A stretch of 32,602 nt of DNA, taken from positions 1 through 32,602 of the IMG/VR virus record IMGVR_UViG_3300044710_000031. One strand, given 5' to 3'. The position numbers and the translations under genes were made by a program. The stretch is from a virus. Position 1 is the first letter of the stretch, and each line of letters begins with the position of its first letter. This document shows positions 3,994 to 21,151 of the stretch, piece by piece. The notes beneath the pieces were generated by a model. The model was not told the DNA's origin. It saw only the letters and a program-made list of their open reading frames with translations, and made no database searches.

Positions 3994-4404
3994 ATGGCTC
4001 GCCCCAACTGGGAGTACATCAAGGTCGACGTGCTGCTCACTGAGCACCCGAAGACCGACGAGCTGTCCGACAAGGCGTTCCGGACGCTCATGGAGCTGTG
4101 GTGCTGGTGCGGACTCAATCACACCGACGGGTTCGTCCGCGAGGCCAAGTGGAAGACGTTCGGCACCAAGGCGGCGCGCGACCAGCTGCTGCGTGTGCCG
4201 CCCGGCTACAAGACCGGGTTTGCCGAGCGCGTCGACGGCGCCTACCTGATGCATGACTTCATCGGTCCGGACGGTCACCAGCGGTCGAAGCAGGAGATCG
4301 ACGAGCTGTCGCTGAAGCGCGCCGAGGCTGGCCGCAAGGGGGGAAGCAAACGGAAAGCAAATGCTCAAGCAGGTGCTCAGGCAAGCGGTCAAGCAAGTGC
4401 TTAG
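3994..4404 (+). CDS. Replication initiator-like protein, N-terminal domain only
   Basis: A 136-residue protein. The ATG at 3994 is preceded by GGAAGAGGGAG, which is better than the ATG at 3928 (which would add a Pro/Ala-rich leader). 'WEYIKVDVLLTEHPKTDELSDKAFRTLMELWCWCG' to 'HTDGFV' has the form of the winged-helix N-terminal domain of phage replisome organisers, and 'RAEAGRKGGSKRKANA' is the basic linker that usually follows it. In full-length relatives a C-terminal domain comes next; here the frame stops at TAG 4402-4404 inside a repeat array. Coding-like sequence recurs downstream in other frames (see findings), so this may be a shortened or decaying initiator. It lies directly beside a candidate origin, as expected for an origin-binding protein. 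Origin binding is inferred. Confidence 0.65.
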   Translation: MARPNWEYIKVDVLLTEHPKTDELSDKAFRTLMELWCWCGLNHTDGFVREAKWKTFGTKAARDQLLRVPPGYKTGFAERVDGAYLMHDFIGPDGHQRSKQEIDELSLKRAEAGRKGGSKRKANAQAGAQASGQASA

Positions 4405-4414
4405 CAAGTGCTTG
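4344..4414 (+). repeat. Iteron cluster A (12-bp tandem repeats)
   Basis: Consecutive copies at 4355-4366, 4367-4378, 4379-4390, 4391-4402 and 4403-4414, with a degenerate 11-bp copy at 4344-4354. The approximate consensus is AAGCAARYGCTC (AAGCAAATGCTC, AAGCAGGTGCTC, AGGCAAGCGGTC, AAGCAAGTGCTT). They overlap the last codons of the initiator-like gene. Spacing near one helical turn and location beside a replication gene suggest initiator-binding iterons. A plain Gln/Ala-rich linker repeat is the alternative. Confidence 0.65.
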
Positions 4415-4459
4415 CGGACGCACAAGGTAACGGGATGGCAAAAACGACCGTGTTCTAGG

Positions 4460-4471
4460 GTGGTCGACCAC
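4460..4471. promoter_or_regulatory. 12-bp perfect palindrome, operator-like
   Basis: GTGGTCGACCAC is self-complementary over its full length and lies between the two iteron clusters. GTGTT at 4450-4454 and AACAC at 4475-4479 add near-symmetric flanking arms. It could be a protein-binding dyad or a small cruciform within the origin. Confidence 0.45.
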
Positions 4472-4497
4472 ACTAACACACGGTCACATACTTCGCG

Positions 4498-4506
4498 TTA
4501 TCCACA
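4498..4506 (+). promoter_or_regulatory. DnaA box
   Basis: TTATCCACA is an exact match to the strong DnaA-box consensus. It lies in the gap between two iteron clusters, which makes a chance match less likely and suggests host DnaA takes part in opening the origin. Confidence 0.7.
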
Positions 4507-4561
4507 GGGCACCCTGAGACCTCCCGAAAACAGATCGCCGCAGGTCACAGGGATCTGGGTC

Positions 4562-4617
4562 TAGCAAACGCTCAAGCACTTGCTCAAGCAAACGCCAAGC
4601 AAAAATCAAGCAGAGGC
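4562..4617 (+). repeat. Iteron cluster B
   Basis: Copies at 4562-4573 (TAGCAAACGCTC), 4574-4585 (AAGCACTTGCTC), 4586-4596 (AAGCAAACGCC), 4597-4607 (AAGCAAAAATC) and 4608-4617 (AAGCAGAGGC), related to cluster A. CAAGCACTTG here (4573-4582) is the exact reverse complement of CAAGTGCTTG in cluster A (4405-4414), so the clusters contain inverted as well as direct copies. Confidence 0.6.
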
Positions 4618-4684
4618 AGAGGCAGTTATACGTGCAGCTTCGCTGCTACGTATCCAACCCCCCGAACGGTGCATTAATTGCTCA

Positions 4685-4760
4685 CCGTAATTTGAGATAG
4701 ATATATCCGTTCTAACAGAACTGTAGTAGCGAATTCGACAATTCAGATTTTGAGATTGGC
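4685..4760. other. AT-rich stretch, possible unwinding element or promoter
   Basis: A strongly AT-rich run in otherwise GC-rich DNA, holding GTTCT-AAC-AGAAC (4709-4721) as a short inverted repeat. It directly precedes the zinc-knuckle gene, so it may also carry the promoter for the following operon; no convincing -35/-10 pair could be fixed. Confidence 0.4.
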
Positions 4761-5866: not shown

Positions 5867-6078
5867 TGGCCGGCATCAAGCTCCATCCGCGCACGATGGT
5901 CGTCCAGAAGGCCGAACGGGACCTTCACGACCGGCTGAGCGACGTCGCCGACGAGCACGACCTGTCCTGGACCGAGATGGCGATCATCCTCGGCAACCTC
6001 CAGACCAACGCACTCAAGTACGTCCTGCGCGAGGAACGCCACCCAGAAGACCCCGACCGGAAGGGGGACGAAGCATGA
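5866..6078 (+). CDS. Small hypothetical protein, possibly ribbon-helix-helix-like
   Basis: A 70-residue protein from ATG 5866. 'AERDLHDRLSDVADEHDLSWTEMAIILGNLQTNALKYVLREERHPED' predicts two or three helices separated by short turns, a size and pattern compatible with a small DNA-binding protein, though no specific motif is decisive. It is rich in acidic residues at the C terminus. It overlaps the next gene by 4 bp (ATGA at 6075-6078). Confidence 0.65.
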   Translation: MAGIKLHPRTMVVQKAERDLHDRLSDVADEHDLSWTEMAIILGNLQTNALKYVLREERHPEDPDRKGDEA

Positions 6079-6386
6079 CCCTAGACGACCTCCGCGAGCA
6101 CCGCCGCAACCTGATCCGGTCCTACCGGCGACGGCTCGACGAGGACTTCCACGGCACCATCGGGCCGCTGCTCGACGAGCTGGATGCCCTCGACCGCAAG
6201 GCGGCACTGCTGGCCGCGCCAGAGCCGGACGACAAGGCGATCGAGGCGTGGATCGGCCGCAACCCGCAGAAGTTCGACGTGTGGGTCCGCAAGCAGGCGG
6301 AGACCGCCCCTGCCGACTCGCCGAAGCCGCCAGCGGCCAAACCGGCCGCTAGGCGCACGCCGACGCGCAGGAAGGGAACGCCGTGA
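6075..6386 (+). CDS. Hypothetical helical protein with basic Pro/Ala tail
   Basis: A 103-residue protein. The ribosome site GGAAGGGGG lies just upstream of ATG 6075. Residues 1-50 form a likely coiled coil (LREHRRNLIRSYRRRLDEDFHGTIGPLLDELDALDRKAALL), and residues 75-103 form a disordered basic tail (PKPPAAKPAARRTPTRRKG) that could contact nucleic acid. Not recognised as a named family. It is coupled to its neighbours by 4-bp overlaps. Confidence 0.65.
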   Translation: MTLDDLREHRRNLIRSYRRRLDEDFHGTIGPLLDELDALDRKAALLAAPEPDDKAIEAWIGRNPQKFDVWVRKQAETAPADSPKPPAAKPAARRTPTRRKGTP

Positions 6387-6712
6387 ACATCCCGCCGGAA
6401 CCACCAGTGCGGCTGGGCGCGCCGGAGCGCGACGAGCCGGTGCGCCTGCTGATCAACATCAGCGGCGACCCTCGCGACGAGTTCCTCAAGTACCTGCGCC
6501 AGTGGATCCGGCCGCCGCACCCGCCCGCGCCGGTCACGTCCGACGAAGAACCGCGGTGGGTGCTTGTCAAAGGCTGGCATGACCAGGGTGGCATCGAAGG
6601 CGTCTACGGGCTGTACAGCGAGGAGGAAGCTGACTGGATACTGTCGGCGCTGCTCGACCTCTCCTCGTACAACTGGACCAAGGCCCGGGTTCAGGCAGGA
6701 CCCGCGAAGTGA
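6383..6712 (+). CDS. Hypothetical protein
   Basis: A 109-residue protein from GTG 6383. The core 'RWVLVKGWHDQGGIEGVYGLYSEEEADWILSALLDLSSYNWTKARVQAG' resembles a small alpha/beta fold with strand-turn-strand then a helix; the N-terminal part is Pro-rich. Short proteins with a '(V)YGLYSEEEA..W' core occur in phage accessory regions, but I cannot assign a role. It overlaps the next gene by 4 bp (GTGA at 6709-6712). Confidence 0.65.
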   Translation: MNIPPEPPVRLGAPERDEPVRLLINISGDPRDEFLKYLRQWIRPPHPPAPVTSDEEPRWVLVKGWHDQGGIEGVYGLYSEEEADWILSALLDLSSYNWTKARVQAGPAK

Positions 6713-6864
6713 ACGCCCGCGGTCATCTCATCGGGACGGCGATCATCCTGGCCGCTGCTCTCGTCGCCGCCGTCGTCATCGTCCGCGCCGCCCACGTGCC
6801 GCCTCCGCCGCCGTCGCACCGCTGCCCGTGCGCCGTGCCGTACGCCACGCCGAGCGCGCCATGA
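6709..6864 (+). CDS. Small single-pass membrane protein
   Basis: A 51-residue ORF from GTG 6709. Residues 7-27 (HLIGTAIILAAALVAAVVIV) form a clear transmembrane helix, followed by a Pro-rich segment with two Cys (PPPPPSHRCPCAVPYATP). The N terminus is short and basic, so the C terminus is probably outside. The function is unknown; small membrane proteins in early regions may modify the host envelope. It is coupled to the methyltransferase by ATGA at 6861-6864. Confidence 0.55.
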   Translation: MNARGHLIGTAIILAAALVAAVVIVRAAHVPPPPPSHRCPCAVPYATPSAP

Positions 6865-7698
6865 GCGTGGTCATCCTGCGCGGGGACGCCGCGCACCTGC
6901 CGCTGCCGGACGCGAGCGTGGATTCGGTCGTCTGTGATCCGCCGTACGGGCTTGAGTTCATGGGCCGCGAGTGGGACACGTTCAGGCCGTCCGGCGCACG
7001 GACCAATCCCGCCGAGGGGAGGTCGCTCACGCGGACACCCGAGGCGTACATCGCGGGCGCGACCTTCGGTGACTGCCGCTGGCCGGCGAACATCCTGCTG
7101 AGCCACACCCCCGAATGCGAGATGACCGGGACGCGGAAAGTGCGGGGGATCACGCAAGGATCCCGGCGCGGCGGGGGGCGCACCACAAAGAGCGATTACG
7201 GGATGCGCGACCAGGACCGCGACAGCGGCTACGCCGACGCGGACGGCATGGAGACCGTCGAGGCGTGGTCGTGTTCCGATTCATGCCCGGTAGCCGAGCT
7301 GGACCGGCAGAGCGGCGTCCGCCCGGCGGGCGGTTCCGCGCACGGCATACACCAGCAGTCGGGGAACCGTGCCGGGATCATGGGCGACAAGGTTGCCCGG
7401 GTACGCGACTTCGACTCTTACGGCGATACCGGAGGCGCAAGCCGATTCTTCCCGGCCTTCCGCTACCAGGCGAAGGCCTCGGCATCCGAGCGGCCCCGCC
7501 TTGAGGATGGCACGGCGTGGCCGACCGTCAAGCCCGTTGAGCTGATGCGCTGGCTCGTCCGGCTCGTGACACCGCCCGGCGGCACGGTCCTCGATCCGTT
7601 CTGCGGAACCGGCCCCACCGGTAGCCCTGGCACTCACCCGCGTCCGGCTGGCCAAGCCCATGCAGCCGGGCCTGTTCAGCGAGATGGAGTCCGCATGA
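6861..7698 (+). pseudogene. DNA methyltransferase (amino-group), disrupted near the C terminus
   Basis: Residues 1-30 hold motif IV (SVDSVVCDPPYG, DPPY at 26-29), the N4-cytosine/N6-adenine amino-methyltransferase signature. Near residue 245 comes the SAM-binding motif 'LDPFCGTGPTG'. After that the frame becomes nonsense, while frame +1 resumes with 'VALALTRVRLAKPMQPGLFSEMESA' and ends at TGA 7696-7698, exactly overlapping the next ATG. The roughly 20 residues expected between these parts, which include the motif II acidic residue contacting SAM, are missing. So about 60 nt plus a frame change have been lost near 7620, and the enzyme is probably inactive. The unshifted frame happens to stay open into the next gene (to 7994). 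The intact homologue would be orphan or modification-type. Confidence 0.8.
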
Positions 7699-7994
7699 GC
7701 ACCGCGACGGAGTTCTTCGACCAGTTCACCGGCCCGCCGGACGCGCCGAAAGGCAGCCCGTGGTGTGCCCGTCACTGGGCACCGGCGTCGCTGGTGGGCT
7801 GCAACGGGAAGGGCGCGAGCCTGGACCTGGGGCGGATCTTCGCCGCCACGCTGCTGCCGGCGTGGGCGCGGTCGCCGGGTGCCCGCAGGCGGGAGCTGGC
7901 CAAGCAGAGCCCGGTGTGCTGCAAGCTCGGCGACGAGCGCATCTATCAGCTGTGGGGGCGCTGGCCTCCGCCGAAACCACCCGAGGAGGACTGA
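7695..7994 (+). CDS. Hypothetical Cys-rich protein
   Basis: A 99-residue protein from ATG 7695, overlapping the methyltransferase stop (ATGA). It has four Cys (WCARHW, GCNGKGAS, VCCKLGDERIY) that could bind a metal. Residues 40-60 (LDLGRIFAATLLPAWARSPGARRRELAKQ) are helical and basic. 'GSPWCARHWAPASL..CNGKGAS' looks like a small zinc-binding unit common in actinophage accessory genes, but no function is known. A tiny ORF of 13 codons (ATG 7997 to TGA 8038) lies between it and the next gene. Confidence 0.65.
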   Translation: MSTATEFFDQFTGPPDAPKGSPWCARHWAPASLVGCNGKGASLDLGRIFAATLLPAWARSPGARRRELAKQSPVCCKLGDERIYQLWGRWPPPKPPEED

Positions 7995-8030: not shown

Positions 8031-8522
8031 ATGACTGACTTCGAGCTGCGCGTGCTGGCGCGCCAGGTGATTGACGAGGATTCGTCGGAGGATTTCGGGC
8101 AGATCCTGAAGGAGCTGCGCCGCCGCATTCCTGATGATCTTGTCGGTGAGGCGCTGGATCAGGCGCTTGTCCCGTTCATGCATGACATGATCCGCAAGCC
8201 GGGGCTGCGCCGGCCGCCTGCCGAGACGCCGGCGCCGGGCGACAAGGGCCGTGCGCGCTCGCCGAAGCTGGCGGGTATCCGGGAGGCGTGGCGGCGGTCG
8301 CTGGACGCGATCCGGTACACGGTGGCGGATGGGAGCGTGCGCCGTATCGGTGACATGTCGCGTGATGACGTGATTTTCGTGGCGTCGCAGCTTGAGGAGC
8401 TGGCGGCGCAGAATGAGGCGAAGGCGGCGCTGATGCGACGTCTCGCCGCCGCGATGGATGACGGCAGCGCGGCGCGGGTCCGCGATCTTCCCGACGAGAC
8501 GCTTCGGGAGTGGTTCGCGTGA
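8031..8522 (+). CDS. Hypothetical helical protein
   Basis: A 163-residue protein. The ATG at 8031 is preceded by AGAGGAAG. Helical throughout: 'FELRVLARQVIDEDSSEDFGQILKELRRRIPDDLVGEALDQALVPFMHDMIR' and 'SRDDVIFVASQLEELAAQNEAKAALMRRLAAAMDD', with a Pro-rich hinge at 62-75. The second half resembles a short coiled-coil module found in actinophage proteins near Tnp/HhH genes. Its end overlaps the start of the next ORF (GTGA at 8519-8522) and a possible extra stem-loop at 8476-8525. Role unknown. Confidence 0.7.
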   Translation: MTDFELRVLARQVIDEDSSEDFGQILKELRRRIPDDLVGEALDQALVPFMHDMIRKPGLRRPPAETPAPGDKGRARSPKLAGIREAWRRSLDAIRYTVADGSVRRIGDMSRDDVIFVASQLEELAAQNEAKAALMRRLAAAMDDGSAARVRDLPDETLREWFA

Positions 8523-9577
8523 CCCTCGCAGACCCCCGGACGGCCAAGTGCGCCCCGGCAACCATGGCAGCTCCGCCGTCCGGGTCAGACCCCCTCAGCG
8601 GCCAGGGCAATTTCGGCACCCAGAAAGGGCACGCCGCTGAGGGCAAGAATTCCCCGCAGGCCAATCTTGAGTCGACACCCAGGCTGCAAGCGCCTGCGGG
8701 GAGCAAGACCAGCCGCAGCCACGCTGTGAGCGATCCCCATGCTGGATCCGCTGCGGCTGATGACTTCCCCGGCGGCCACACTTCGAGCGGTGCCCAAACC
8801 ACCTGCGCCGCCGGGGAGCAAGATCCGCCAGCTCAGCCCACGGGAGCATCGATCCCCATAGCCGTACCGCCTGAGCTGGCGGAGCACGATGCGTGGCTCG
8901 CGTTCGCCGCAGACATCCTCGACGACCTCGAGCACGTCCGCATCGCCAACGAGAACCGGCTCCGAACCCTCACCAGCCACGACGACGACGGATTCGGCCT
9001 CGACGAGACACACCCCGACGTCGCCCGCCTCGCCGCCCTCGTCGCCATGCTCGCCGACGCCGAGCACAAAGCCGAACTCACCCTCGGACGCCACATGCGC
9101 ACCCACCCCCTCAACCCGTGGATCAAGGGCGTCAAGGGCATCGGCGAGAAGCAAGGCGCCCGCCTCCTCGCCGCCATCGGCGACCCCTATTGGAACACCG
9201 CCGCAGACCAGCCCCGCCGCGTCTCCGACCTGTGGTCCTACTGCGGCTACGGCGACGCAGCCACCCAGGTCCGCAAGCGCGGCCAGAAAGCCAACTGGAA
9301 CGCCACCGCCAAGATGCGTGCATTCCTCGTCGCCGAATCCTGCATGAAAATCCGCGACAGCCCCTACCGCGCCATTTACGACGCCGCCCGCGACCGCTAC
9401 AAGGACGCCATTCACATAAAGGAATGCGTCCGCTGCGGACCGAAGAACCATCCCGCACTGCCCGGAACACCGCTCTCAGACGGCCACAGGCACGCCCGCG
9501 CGCTCCGGGCTGTCGCCAAGGAAATCCTGCGCGACCTCTGGCGAGCATCGCGCGATCTCGCAGCCAGGGAGGGCTGA
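8519..9577 (+). CDS. Stand-alone IS110-type Tnp/helix-hairpin-helix protein
   Basis: The open frame is 352 codons from GTG 8519. Residues from about 120 match the C-terminal half of IS110/IS116/IS902-type transposases: a helical arm (ADILDDLEHVRIANENRLRTL), a helix-hairpin-helix near residues 201-225 (WIKGVKGIGEKQGARLLAAIG), then 'VSDLWSYCGYG', 'RKRGQKANWNATAKMRAFL' and a CVRC pair near residue 302. The N-terminal DEDD RuvC-like nuclease domain of IS110 enzymes is absent, and I could not place the catalytic serine, so it is probably a domesticated RNA/DNA-binding protein and not an active recombinase. Codons 6-122 coincide with the six-hairpin array; no in-frame ATG/GTG lies just after the array, so the true start is uncertain and the leader may be translated structured RNA. 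Confidence 0.75.
   Translation: MTLADPRTAKCAPATMAAPPSGSDPLSGQGNFGTQKGHAAEGKNSPQANLESTPRLQAPAGSKTSRSHAVSDPHAGSAAADDFPGGHTSSGAQTTCAAGEQDPPAQPTGASIPIAVPPELAEHDAWLAFAADILDDLEHVRIANENRLRTLTSHDDDGFGLDETHPDVARLAALVAMLADAEHKAELTLGRHMRTHPLNPWIKGVKGIGEKQGARLLAAIGDPYWNTAADQPRRVSDLWSYCGYGDAATQVRKRGQKANWNATAKMRAFLVAESCMKIRDSPYRAIYDAARDRYKDAIHIKECVRCGPKNHPALPGTPLSDGHRHARALRAVAKEILRDLWRASRDLAAREG
8535..8584 (+). ncRNA. Array stem-loop 1
   Basis: Arms CCCGGACGG (8535-8543) and CCGTCCGGG (8576-8584), 32-nt loop. The loop core is CGGCAACCA at 8556-8564. Preceded by the linker GCAGACC (8528-8534). Confidence 0.75.
8592..8643 (+). ncRNA. Array stem-loop 2
   Basis: Arms CCCTCAGCGGC (8592-8602) and GCCGCTGAGGG (8633-8643), 30-nt loop. 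The loop core CGGCACCCA starts at 8614 and is flanked by TTTC (8611-8614) and GAAA (8623-8626), which can pair as an inner stem. Confidence 0.85.
8651..8702 (+). ncRNA. Array stem-loop 3
   Basis: Arms TCCCCGCAGGC (8651-8661) and GCCTGCGGGGA (8692-8702), 30-nt loop. The core CGACACCCA starts at 8673; CTTG (8666-8669) and CAAG (8687-8690) can pair inside the loop. Confidence 0.85.
8710..8759 (+). ncRNA. Array stem-loop 4
   Basis: Arms CAGCCGCAGC (8710-8719) and GCTGCGGCTG (8750-8759), 30-nt loop. The core CGATCCCCA starts at 8731; GATCC (8732-8736) and GGATC (8744-8748) can form an inner hairpin. Confidence 0.85.
8766..8817 (+). ncRNA. Array stem-loop 5
   Basis: Arms TCCCCGGCGGC (8766-8776) and GCCGCCGGGGA (8807-8817), 30-nt loop. 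The core CGGTGCCCA starts at 8788; GGTG (8789-8792) and CACC (8800-8803) can form an inner hairpin with a 7-nt loop. Confidence 0.85.
8824..8883 (+). ncRNA. Array stem-loop 6
   Basis: The longest stem: TCCGCCAGCTCAG (8824-8836) pairs with CTGAGCTGGCGGA (8871-8883), 34-nt loop. The core CGATCCCCA starts at 8850; ACGG (8840-8843) and CCGT (8862-8865) can pair inside the loop. This unit abuts the conserved Tnp/HhH coding part. Confidence 0.85.
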
Positions 9578-18209: not shown

Positions 18210-19736
18210 GTGACAGCGGTGATGCCGGAGACCGGCGACGAGCTGGAGGAGCTGTTCCACGATCCCGCGCGGCTGAGCGCCGCCGTGGAGGATGGCGGCG
18301 TCGCCGGCCTGGTGCGGAACTATGCGGAGAAGTGGGCCGCGAGCAAGTACGGCCCGCAGATGCAGGCGCAGCTGCAGGAGCAGGCGCAGCTGGGTATCCA
18401 GGAGTTTTTCCAGGATCAGGCGCAGCGGAACGGCGCGGTGCCGCGGGATGGTTTCCGGCCCGGCATGGCGCTGGACCTGCTGCAGGGCCGGCGTAGCCCG
18501 CGTCGTCAGCGGGCGGTTGCGCGCTCGAGGGTGCGGAACGCCTCGGACCTGTTCGACAAGCAGGGCCTGTTCGCCGAGCGGGCGCTCGGTGCCTCCGACG
18601 ACATCGACAACTCGGAGTACGCCAGCGACCTGAGGAAGTTCGTGTGGGCGACGATCAAGGGCCAGCACGTCGCGGCCCGGGACGGCGACAGCGAGCTGGC
18701 CGAGAAGCTGCTTGGCCTGAAGAGCAGCCTGGCGAAGACGCTGGAGATCCGCAACGCGGGCATGTCCGAGCGGGTGCCCAGCGAGGGCGGCTTCCTCGTG
18801 CCGGAGACGCTCAGGTCCGAGATCCTGGCGCTGGTGCTTGAGGACGCGGTGATGCGTCCCGAGGCTACCGTCATCCCGATGGACTCGCTGCGGGTGCCGC
18901 TCCCGTCGATCGACGACACGTCGCACACCTCGACCGTGTTCGGCGGCGTGGCGGCCGAGTGGACGGCTGAGGGTGCGGCGCTGACCATCACCGCGCCGAA
19001 GTTCGGCCGGGTCGTGCTCCAGGCATCGAAGCTGACCGCCTTCACGCAGATCCCGAACGAGCTGCTGCAGGACTCGGTCTCGCCGATGGACGTGTGGTTC
19101 AACACGTTCTTCCCGCAGGCTGTCTCGTTCTTCGAGGACTACGCGTTCCTGATGGGCACCGGCATCGACGAGCCGGAGGGCCTGCTGAGCTGCCCCGGCG
19201 CTGTCACCGTACCCGCGACGACGGCCGGGAAGATCGCGCTGACGGACGTTATCGCGATGCTGGTGCGGCTGTGGCCGCCGTCGCTGAAGCGGGCTCGCTG
19301 GGTGTGCAGCCCGGATGCGTTCGGCCAGCTGCTGGGCATGGGGCTGATCGTCGGCAGCACGGCGATCGCGCCGCCCGCCATGCTCGGCGGCATGCAGGCG
19401 ATCGAGATGCCCGCCAACCTGCAGACCGACGGAATGACCTTCAAGATGCTCGGCATCCCCGGCCGCGTGTCGGAGAAGCTGCCTTACCCGGATGCGTCCG
19501 CCGGCGCTCAGCCGGACGGCGCCCTGGCCTTGTACGACCCGACGGGCTATCTCATCGGGGATAGGCAGGCGATGCAGGTCGCCTCTTCAGCGGAGTACAG
19601 CTTCGCGAACGACGAGGTGTCCTACCGCATCACCCAGCGGCTGGACGGCCGCGGCTGGCAGCGCAGCGCGCTCACTCCGGCCAACGGATCACCTAGCACC
19701 CTGTCCATGATCGTCAAGCTCGGCCAGCAGACGTAA
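18210..19736 (+). CDS. HK97-fold major capsid protein 1
   Basis: A 508-residue protein from GTG 18210; AGAGGGAG lies about 8 nt upstream. Residues 1-185 form a long helical, charged N-terminal part (a scaffold-like delta domain, 'QMQAQLQEQAQLGIQEFFQDQAQRN') that the maturation protease would remove. From 'SERVPSEGGFLVPETLRSEIL' (residue 186 on) the HK97 fold begins: P-domain helix and strands, 'TAFTQIPNELLQDSVSPMDVWFNTFFPQAVSFFEDYAFLMGTG', and ending 'YRITQRLDGRGW' with 'LIGDRQAMQVASS'. It self-assembles into the head shell. A second capsid-type gene follows at 20021. Confidence 0.95.
   Translation: MTAVMPETGDELEELFHDPARLSAAVEDGGVAGLVRNYAEKWAASKYGPQMQAQLQEQAQLGIQEFFQDQAQRNGAVPRDGFRPGMALDLLQGRRSPRRQRAVARSRVRNASDLFDKQGLFAERALGASDDIDNSEYASDLRKFVWATIKGQHVAARDGDSELAEKLLGLKSSLAKTLEIRNAGMSERVPSEGGFLVPETLRSEILALVLEDAVMRPEATVIPMDSLRVPLPSIDDTSHTSTVFGGVAAEWTAEGAALTITAPKFGRVVLQASKLTAFTQIPNELLQDSVSPMDVWFNTFFPQAVSFFEDYAFLMGTGIDEPEGLLSCPGAVTVPATTAGKIALTDVIAMLVRLWPPSLKRARWVCSPDAFGQLLGMGLIVGSTAIAPPAMLGGMQAIEMPANLQTDGMTFKMLGIPGRVSEKLPYPDASAGAQPDGALALYDPTGYLIGDRQAMQVASSAEYSFANDEVSYRITQRLDGRGWQRSALTPANGSPSTLSMIVKLGQQT
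18764..18811 (+). repeat. 48-bp direct repeat, copy 1
   Basis: Identical to 20170-20217. It encodes SERVPSEGGFLVPETL in both capsid genes. Exact identity here, while the flanks diverge, suggests gene conversion or recent duplication. Confidence 0.9.
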
Positions 19737-20020: not shown

Positions 20021-21151
20021 ATGATAAACCTCCGCGACCTGCCGGGTTACCGGCCAGACGCCCCGGGCGCGCGGCTGGACGACCAGCCGTGGGCGAAGTC
20101 GTGGGCGACGTACCTGAAGGCCGTCTTCAACCCGGCGGGCGAGGCCAGGAGGGTCATCCGGAACACCTGGTCCGAGCGGGTGCCCAGCGAGGGCGGCTTC
20201 CTCGTGCCGGAGACGCTGCGCGCTCAGGTGATGGCCTACATGACCACCGCGATCGTGCGCCCGCGGGCGACGGTGGTGGAGATGGACAGCCCTCGCCTGG
20301 GCATCCCGCTGCTGGACAACCCGTCGCAGGCGTCAGGCAAGCAGGCGCTCGGCGGTCTCACGTTCTCCATCGTCGAGGTCGGGGAGACGATCCCGGCGAC
20401 GAACCCGGCACTCGGCCGCCTGGTGCTGGAGGCCCGGAAGATCGCCGCCTACCTGCAGGGCGTCCCGAACGAGCTGACCGACGACGCGGCCGGCGCGATG
20501 GGCGACCTGCTCGCCCGGGTCATCGCGCTGGGCTTGGCATGGTTCGAGGATGACCTGTTCATTTTCAACGGCACCGGTGCCGGGGAGCCGCAGTCACTGG
20601 CCAACGGCGGTGCGGCGCTGGCCGTGAACCGGGGAACCTCGGACAAGGTGCTGGTGGCGGACATTGCGGCGATGCTGACAGGGCTGCATCCGGCGGCGCT
20701 GCAGGCAGGTCTGACGCCGGGGCTGACTCATGTCCGGTGGCTGATCTCGTCGGCGGCGCTTCCCCAGCTGCTGGAGCTGTACCTGAACACCGGCGGGTCG
20801 ACTGCGGGCACCGACATCACGCCGGCCACGACATCGGAGTGGTTTCAGTTCGGCGACGGCCACGACATCGGCCCGTCGGGCCTGGGGCTGCCCGCGAGCA
20901 TCACCGACCATCAGCCTGCGCTCGGCAGCACCGGCGACGTGATGCTCGCGGATCTGTCCCAGTACGTGATCAGTGACCGGCTGACGATGACCGTCGAGCA
21001 GTCGAAGGACGGTGCCGGGTTCATCAAGGACACCAGCAACTTCCGGATCCGCTCCCGGGTCGACGGCCGGTACTGGATTCAGAGCCAGTCGACGACGGAG
21101 GCCGGGGCGGCGGTGTCCCCGGTCGTGGTACTGGCGCCCCCGGCGGGTTAG
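20021..21151 (+). CDS. HK97-fold capsid protein 2
   Basis: A 376-residue protein from ATG 20021. It shares 'SERVPSEGGFLVPETLR' with capsid protein 1, but here the motif begins at residue 51, so the long scaffold-like N-terminal domain is absent. 'GRLVLEARKIAAYLQGVPNELTDDAAGAMGDLLARVIALGLAWFEDDLFIFNGTG' and 'FRIRSRVDGRYW' at the end match the HK97 fold in the same order as protein 1; the remaining sequence diverges. The two proteins may build different positions of the shell (for example hexons and pentons), or one may be a recent replacement. Neither arrangement can be told from sequence. Confidence 0.9.
   Translation: MINLRDLPGYRPDAPGARLDDQPWAKSWATYLKAVFNPAGEARRVIRNTWSERVPSEGGFLVPETLRAQVMAYMTTAIVRPRATVVEMDSPRLGIPLLDNPSQASGKQALGGLTFSIVEVGETIPATNPALGRLVLEARKIAAYLQGVPNELTDDAAGAMGDLLARVIALGLAWFEDDLFIFNGTGAGEPQSLANGGAALAVNRGTSDKVLVADIAAMLTGLHPAALQAGLTPGLTHVRWLISSAALPQLLELYLNTGGSTAGTDITPATTSEWFQFGDGHDIGPSGLGLPASITDHQPALGSTGDVMLADLSQYVISDRLTMTVEQSKDGAGFIKDTSNFRIRSRVDGRYWIQSQSTTEAGAAVSPVVVLAPPAG
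20170..20217 (+). repeat. 48-bp direct repeat, copy 2
   Basis: Exact second copy of 18764-18811, 1,406 bp downstream, in the corresponding place of the second capsid gene. Confidence 0.9.

Follow-up and report, generated by a model that had tools for sequence, protein, structure and literature searches.

The stretch of viral DNA analysed here (the window; 32,602 nt, positions 1 to 32,602 of IMG/VR record IMGVR_UViG_3300044710_000031) belongs to a tailed phage, as indicated by its genes for RecT, portal, head protease, major head protein and tape measure. Six tandem hairpins at 8535-8883 precede a conserved protein domain, and both lie in one reading frame, whose gene is annotated as a "transposase" in phages. 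The hairpins are a TIGR stem-loop array, a row of RNA guides of the TIGR-Tas kind in which each hairpin would be one guide RNA, and the gene after the array encodes the nuclease-less Tas protein TasA. The features of the locus are the following:

8031-8522, + strand: upstream gene of unknown function (phrog_4604), whose stop codon TGA (8520-8522) overlaps the tasA GTG as GTGA
8505-8510, + strand: Shine-Dalgarno-like CGGGAG, 8 nt upstream of GTG 8519
8519-9577, + strand: tasA reading frame, 352 aa, GTG start, with the whole array in its 5' third
8535-8584, + strand: guide unit 1; arms 8535-8544/8575-8584; spacer A 8547-8555, AGTGCGCCC; box D CG 8556-8557; linker GCAA; box C' CCA 8562-8564; spacer B 8565-8573, TGGCAGCTC
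8592-8643, + strand: guide unit 2; arms 8592-8602/8633-8643; spacer A 8605-8613, GGGCAATTT; spacer B 8623-8631, GAAAGGGCA
8650-8703, + strand: guide unit 3; arms 8651-8661/8692-8702; spacer A 8664-8672, ATCTTGAGT; spacer B 8682-8690, GGCTGCAAG
8708-8761, + strand: guide unit 4; arms 8710-8719/8750-8759; spacer A 8722-8730, CGCTGTGAG; spacer B 8740-8748, TGCTGGATC
8765-8818, + strand: guide unit 5; arms 8766-8776/8807-8817; spacer A 8779-8787, CACTTCGAG; spacer B 8797-8805, AACCACCTG
8824-8883, + strand: guide unit 6; arms 8824-8836/8871-8883 plus the pair C8838-G8869; spacer A 8841-8849, CGGGAGCAT; spacer B 8859-8867, TAGCCGTAC
8885-9577, + strand: conserved TasA domain, comprising a coiled coil and a Nop/IS110-like RNA-binding part, with no nuclease domain

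The initial annotation, made from the sequence alone, had reported six perfectly paired stem-loops, and all six were recovered at the same places, with stems of 10-13 bp and loops of 30, 30, 30, 30, 30 and 34 nt; the stem of hairpin 1 measures 10 bp (8535-8544/8575-8584) and not 9 as had been given, so that the loops of exactly 30 nt number five instead of four. The arms vary between units yet are palindromic, as in stem-loop arrays. All the units (n = 6/6) share the loop pattern CCA-N9-CG-N4-CCA-N9-CG, that is, box C, spacer A, box D, linker, box C', spacer B and box D', in which the innermost stem pair joins the initial C of CCA to the final G of CG, the 30-nt loops of five units being made up of 2+9+2+4+3+9+1 nt. 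Hairpin 6, with its 13-bp stem and 34-nt loop, has the same core as the other units and one mismatched position below it; an extra C8838-G8869 pair within a C.C mismatch restores the common register.

Dinucleotide shuffles of the 400-nt region yielded a mean of 0.048 dyads of at least 9 bp (maximum of 2 in 1000 shuffles) against the six observed, and a mean of 0.006 with a 30-nt loop against the five observed. The predicted RNA fold of the whole array consisted of exactly those six hairpins, with a folding energy of -182.6 kcal/mol (shuffles -146.6 +/- 6.1; z = -5.9). Repeated chance dyads had been judged very unlikely in the annotation, with equally good shuffles named as a possible refutation; the shuffles did not reproduce the array, favouring a real structured element. 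Within the window, Rfam gave no match at gathering score and the tRNA search found none.

Relatives of tasA were detected by tblastn in 86 phage records, 76 of them from Mycobacterium phages such as Euphoria, Thor and SarFire; Gordonia and Rhodococcus phages are represented too, and the gene is annotated in the records as transposase, DNA-binding protein or hypothetical. Further relatives were found in 20 IMG/VR contigs and in Parafrankia, Actinomadura, Nocardioides, Nocardia and Mycobacterium genomes, where the copies are presumably prophages. Units of this type accompany tasA in almost all of these relatives. The same array grammar (strict motif) was present beside tasA in 33 of the 36 loci examined, answering the proposal of the annotation that related arrays be sought in homologous phages. 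A second contig (28.3 kb, 99.99% identity) also represents the window phage and has the same array, only one array allele being known for this phage.

Arm covariation was assessed in units picked by the loop motif alone, with the arms unconstrained. Near tasA, 114 of 161 such units paired at 9/9 flanking positions and 130 of 161 at 8 or more, while the motif elsewhere was flanked by at least 8 paired positions in 2 of 23 occurrences. Pairing was 0.90 for the actual arms and 0.55 when arms were re-dealt between units, and all four Watson-Crick pair types were seen at most arm positions, so that the covariation claimed for the six units holds across homologues. The array is in frame and GC-rich, as would be expected if codon bias in a low-complexity coding segment had produced chance hairpins devoid of RNA function. 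This explanation has next to no probability: the length of a unit is not divisible by 3, the arms covary, shuffles fail to reproduce the array, and the explanation is refuted by the cluster A mycobacteriophages, in which the same array lies outside the reading frame. Chance dyads were rejected as well.

A polycistronic structured RNA, one of the suggestions of the annotation, is the probable nature of the array, and the annotation was right in its dismissal of a CRISPR array, in which near-identical direct repeats would separate the spacers (none are present), and of a terminator cluster, also considered and rejected here. Nothing supports the single-strand DNA element offered as its other suggestion; a single-strand DNA origin was rejected, as the hairpins are many, unique and tied to tasA, and a replication gene is unnecessary as an explanation. 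The annotation could name no repeat type, and had overlooked the loop pattern, the in-frame position of the array and its tie to the downstream gene. Arrays of this stem-loop kind, accompanied by TasA, were described by Faure et al. (2025, Science; PMC12045711, section 9, Fig. 7), where stem-loop TasA arrays are reported to be expressed and processed.

The tasA product matched phrog_4285, named "transposase" (5.6e-97; PHROG), and, at the sequence level, TasR (PDB 9mty, 1.9e-18) and TasH (2.1e-10). In the AlphaFold2 model, pLDDT exceeded 90 over most of residues 120-350 and was about 42 over residues 1-100, the array-coded residues 1-115 being predicted as disordered. The 11 best Foldseek matches were all TasR or TasH (E 2e-8 to 6e-6), the next match having an E-value of 0.29. 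Pfam gave nothing above cut-off for TasA, nuclease domains included, and no RuvC, HNH or DEDD domain was found in the product with Pfam, the AlphaFold2 model or the fold search; a protein that matches TasR and TasH and carries none of these domains is TasA. The name of phrog_4285, echoed in several GenBank records, and the Nop/IS110 homology of the C-terminal part would agree with an IS110-type transposon, with the gene as its transposase and the hairpins as bridge RNA or terminal repeats. Such an element is refuted by the lack of an N-terminal DEDD/RuvC-like catalytic domain, residues 1-115 being disordered and the remainder matching TasR/TasH only; there was no IS110 structure among the fold matches at E<0.1 and no Pfam IS110 domain, and six similar units with variable spacers are not one two-loop bridge RNA. 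We regard it as highly improbable.

In the window, GTG 8519, located before unit 1, is the sole start in the tasA frame with a Shine-Dalgarno, and its GTGA overlap with the stop of the phrog_4604 gene suggests translational coupling. No in-frame ATG, GTG or TTG occurs from residue 70 (unit 4) to residue 177 of tasA, and the invariant TasA residues begin at 131-147. Starts of the same kind ahead of the array recur in BENtherdunthat, Spooky, LonelyBoi, Rich, Parafrankia and others. Of 22 loci, some of which are mutually related, 18 had the tasA frame open through the whole array, against 7 and 6 for the other two frames (Fisher p 0.002 and 0.0007, respectively).

One or two guide units were also located within the conserved TasA domain in BENtherdunthat, LonelyBoi, Spooky, Parafrankia, Actinomadura, M. 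interjectum and several contigs, always at a single site between ..LWAYCGFHV and GVAPKR.. and with the frame kept on both sides, a site that corresponds to the one low-confidence loop (residues 248-252) in the conserved domain of the window model. These units amid tasA are decisive for the embedding principle, the embedded sequence being an N-terminal tail in the window phage and also an internal protein loop in relatives. A separate observation was made in a Nocardia suismassiliense contig (NZ_LT985366.1, 2476-4872), where a tasA frame of 799 codons is interrupted at the conserved ..SELWAY|C.. site by an apparent intein of ~1 kb (CVPRGERVSTPSGAI...VNNLVVHN|C), downstream of which lie two internal guide units.

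The same TIGR-TasA system might instead have its array as an untranslated 5' leader, with TasA initiated downstream of unit 6 from a non-standard codon and the frame open by chance in GC-rich DNA; when the spacers were shuffled, the window frame stayed open in 39% of cases, and the cluster A mycobacteriophages do have a leader array, with in-frame stops and the tasA GTG after it. This is unlikely for the window, given the stretch between residues 70 and 177 devoid of start codons, the Shine-Dalgarno and GTGA overlap at GTG 8519, the recurrence of overlapping starts in relatives, and the units amid tasA, which must be translated. In this actinobacteriophage branch, the gene of the effector probably carries the guide array within its coding part, one RNA being both message and guide precursor, with a built-in trade-off.

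The TIGR-TasA reading as a whole, with the array embedded in the tasA frame and the mRNA doubling as guide precursor, is held with high confidence. Weighing against it are the relatedness among loci in the frame test; the cluster A phages, whose leader arrays with in-frame stops indicate that embedding is not essential; the RNA side in the window phage, where transcription and processing, like DNA binding, target class and the message/guide trade-off, are what we infer; and the target searches presented below.

Guide turnover was evident among 12 near-identical cluster A mycobacteriophages, with tasA conservation of 0.93-1.00 per 20-column block. The arms and boxes of five slots were largely fixed and the spacers differed; three slots had 9 distinct inner sequences apiece, some alleles being few bases apart and others wholly different. 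Fixed arms with swapped spacers indicate guides under turnover, as purely structural hairpins would not behave in this way. Another spacer exchange within fixed slots was observed in two IMG/VR contigs (L013 and L014, 4212-4495) and an Acidimicrobiaceae metagenome-assembled genome (L125, 2212-2495), which have near-identical arrays with the same arms and partly different spacers.

In the mechanism that we propose, the variable self-complementary arms would hold the guide RNA closed, the loop would offer two 9-nt spacers, each bracketed by CCA (box C) and CG (box D), and two subunits of TasA, a Nop-domain protein, would grip boxes C and D. By analogy with TasR and TasH, for which a Tas dimer holds the boxes, each spacer may pair with a different strand of a target of the form spacerA-(0-2 nt)-revcomp(spacerB), a geometry that fits the published 8-nt 3' overhangs, which the reverse order does not. 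As TasA has no nuclease, its most likely action is to open and bend the site instead of cutting it, blocking the expression or replication of rival phages or other mobile DNA. With the array translated within the tasA frame as a disordered N-terminal tail, the tasA mRNA would be the guide precursor too, and each message would be either translated or made into guides. Guide maturation requires Tas proteins, yet they do not cut (PMC12045711); combined with an embedded array, this would mean that TasA tags the mRNA encoding it to be turned into guides and thereby restricts the supply of TasA. If the array is embedded in this manner, guide maturation would destroy the message, TasA could limit its own synthesis, and guide sequences would be free to change only inside an open reading frame.

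Target searches were performed at several scales. Among the records scanned for self targets, of which about 22 were complete or almost complete, none gave a match at one mismatch or fewer, and self- and cross-targeting in 1.16 Mb of related records gave nothing above controls. Scans of IMG/VR with the six window guides yielded 0-7 matches each, not above chance; 20 guides had no target in 50,697 phage records (gap 0 only, with sensitivity checked by local calibration), and four guides had none in 228 Mycobacterium genomes. The seven IMG/VR matches of guide 4 (CGCTGTGAG NN GATCCAGCA; L107-L113), all with a 2-nt gap and spread over seven contigs, fell in one conserved stretch of a conserved lambda-type portal gene in an alphaproteobacterial-looking context, and were counted as one event, probably one chance match in a conserved gene. 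Guide 5 had one gap-0 match, in a tail-terminator-like gene of a GC-rich (69%) phage (L115), which is taken as a lead only.

These searches also bear on whether the TIGR-TasA guides are directed at DNA of the phage itself or of its host, in regulation or as an integration aid, and not at rival elements. Repressor, Cro, excise or recombination genes lie nearby in Gordonia and cluster A phages, TasA has no nuclease, and an integration-aid role has been proposed (PMC12045711). The lack of self matches at one mismatch or fewer makes self-regulation by perfect pairing unlikely, and the rapid spacer swapping between near-identical phages and the lack of a Mycobacterium match for four guides also argue against action on own or host DNA, which we consider possible but doubtful.

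Elsewhere in the window, a predicted DNA methyltransferase gene (N6_N4_Mtase; 6564-7994) lies shortly upstream of tasA, and phrog_10, the family of the major head protein, is matched by each of two neighbouring frames (18210-19736, E 6e-36; 20021-21151, E 1e-20).

The stem-loop kind of TIGR array has been known since 2025, whereas an array within the tasA reading frame and units amid tasA in relatives are apparently new. A search of non-subscription papers and of the main text of Faure et al. found no report of TIGR-Tas in actinobacteriophages or inside tas reading frames, and that main text places arrays upstream or downstream of the gene, with in-frame arrays unmentioned there (PMC12045711). 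The same article lists as open questions the natural targets, how guides change and the role of the nuclease-less TasA. The system is now placed in cultured, much-studied phages, with ready-made near-identical sets that differ in their guides, which brings target, guide turnover and function within reach of tests in M. smegmatis. If the guide array is indeed translated together with the effector as one protein, this would be a new way of coupling guide and effector supply.

The locus resembles the TIGR-TasA stem-loop arrays of Faure et al. (PMC12045711) in its tandem hairpins with variable palindromic arms, the nuclease-less Nop-domain protein alongside and its presence in a phage; it differs from those described there in the array within the tasA coding frame, the units inside tasA in relatives, box D CG, the 4-nt linker, the 9-nt spacers and the actinobacterial phage setting. 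With the dual-repeat TIGR arrays of TasR, TasH and TasA it shares two 9-nt spacers per unit, the CCA box C, a homologous protein and, presumably, the target geometry, but its arms are unique to each unit instead of a constant edge repeat, and a nuclease domain is lacking. TasR arrays have CCA as box C and UG as box D, with a Watson-Crick pair joining both, whereas the window boxes are CCA and CG. An array intermediate between the stem-loop and dual-repeat kinds was observed in IMGVR_UViG_3300036790_000270 (4354-4732 and 5891-6586), with more than 20 TIGR units at a 37-nt period, most of whose arms alternate between GCCCGGC and GCCGGGC, constant palindromic sequences common to neighbouring units. 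The IS110 transposase with its bridge RNA has a homologous RNA-binding domain and a similar split guide logic; the window system differs in having no DEDD catalytic domain, no donor loop, an array of many guides and no transposon ends seen. As in a CRISPR array, a row of variable guide segments adjoins an effector gene and guides turn over between close relatives, but the window array has no constant direct repeat, its guides are split into 9+9 nt, its arms covary and no Cas effector was seen.
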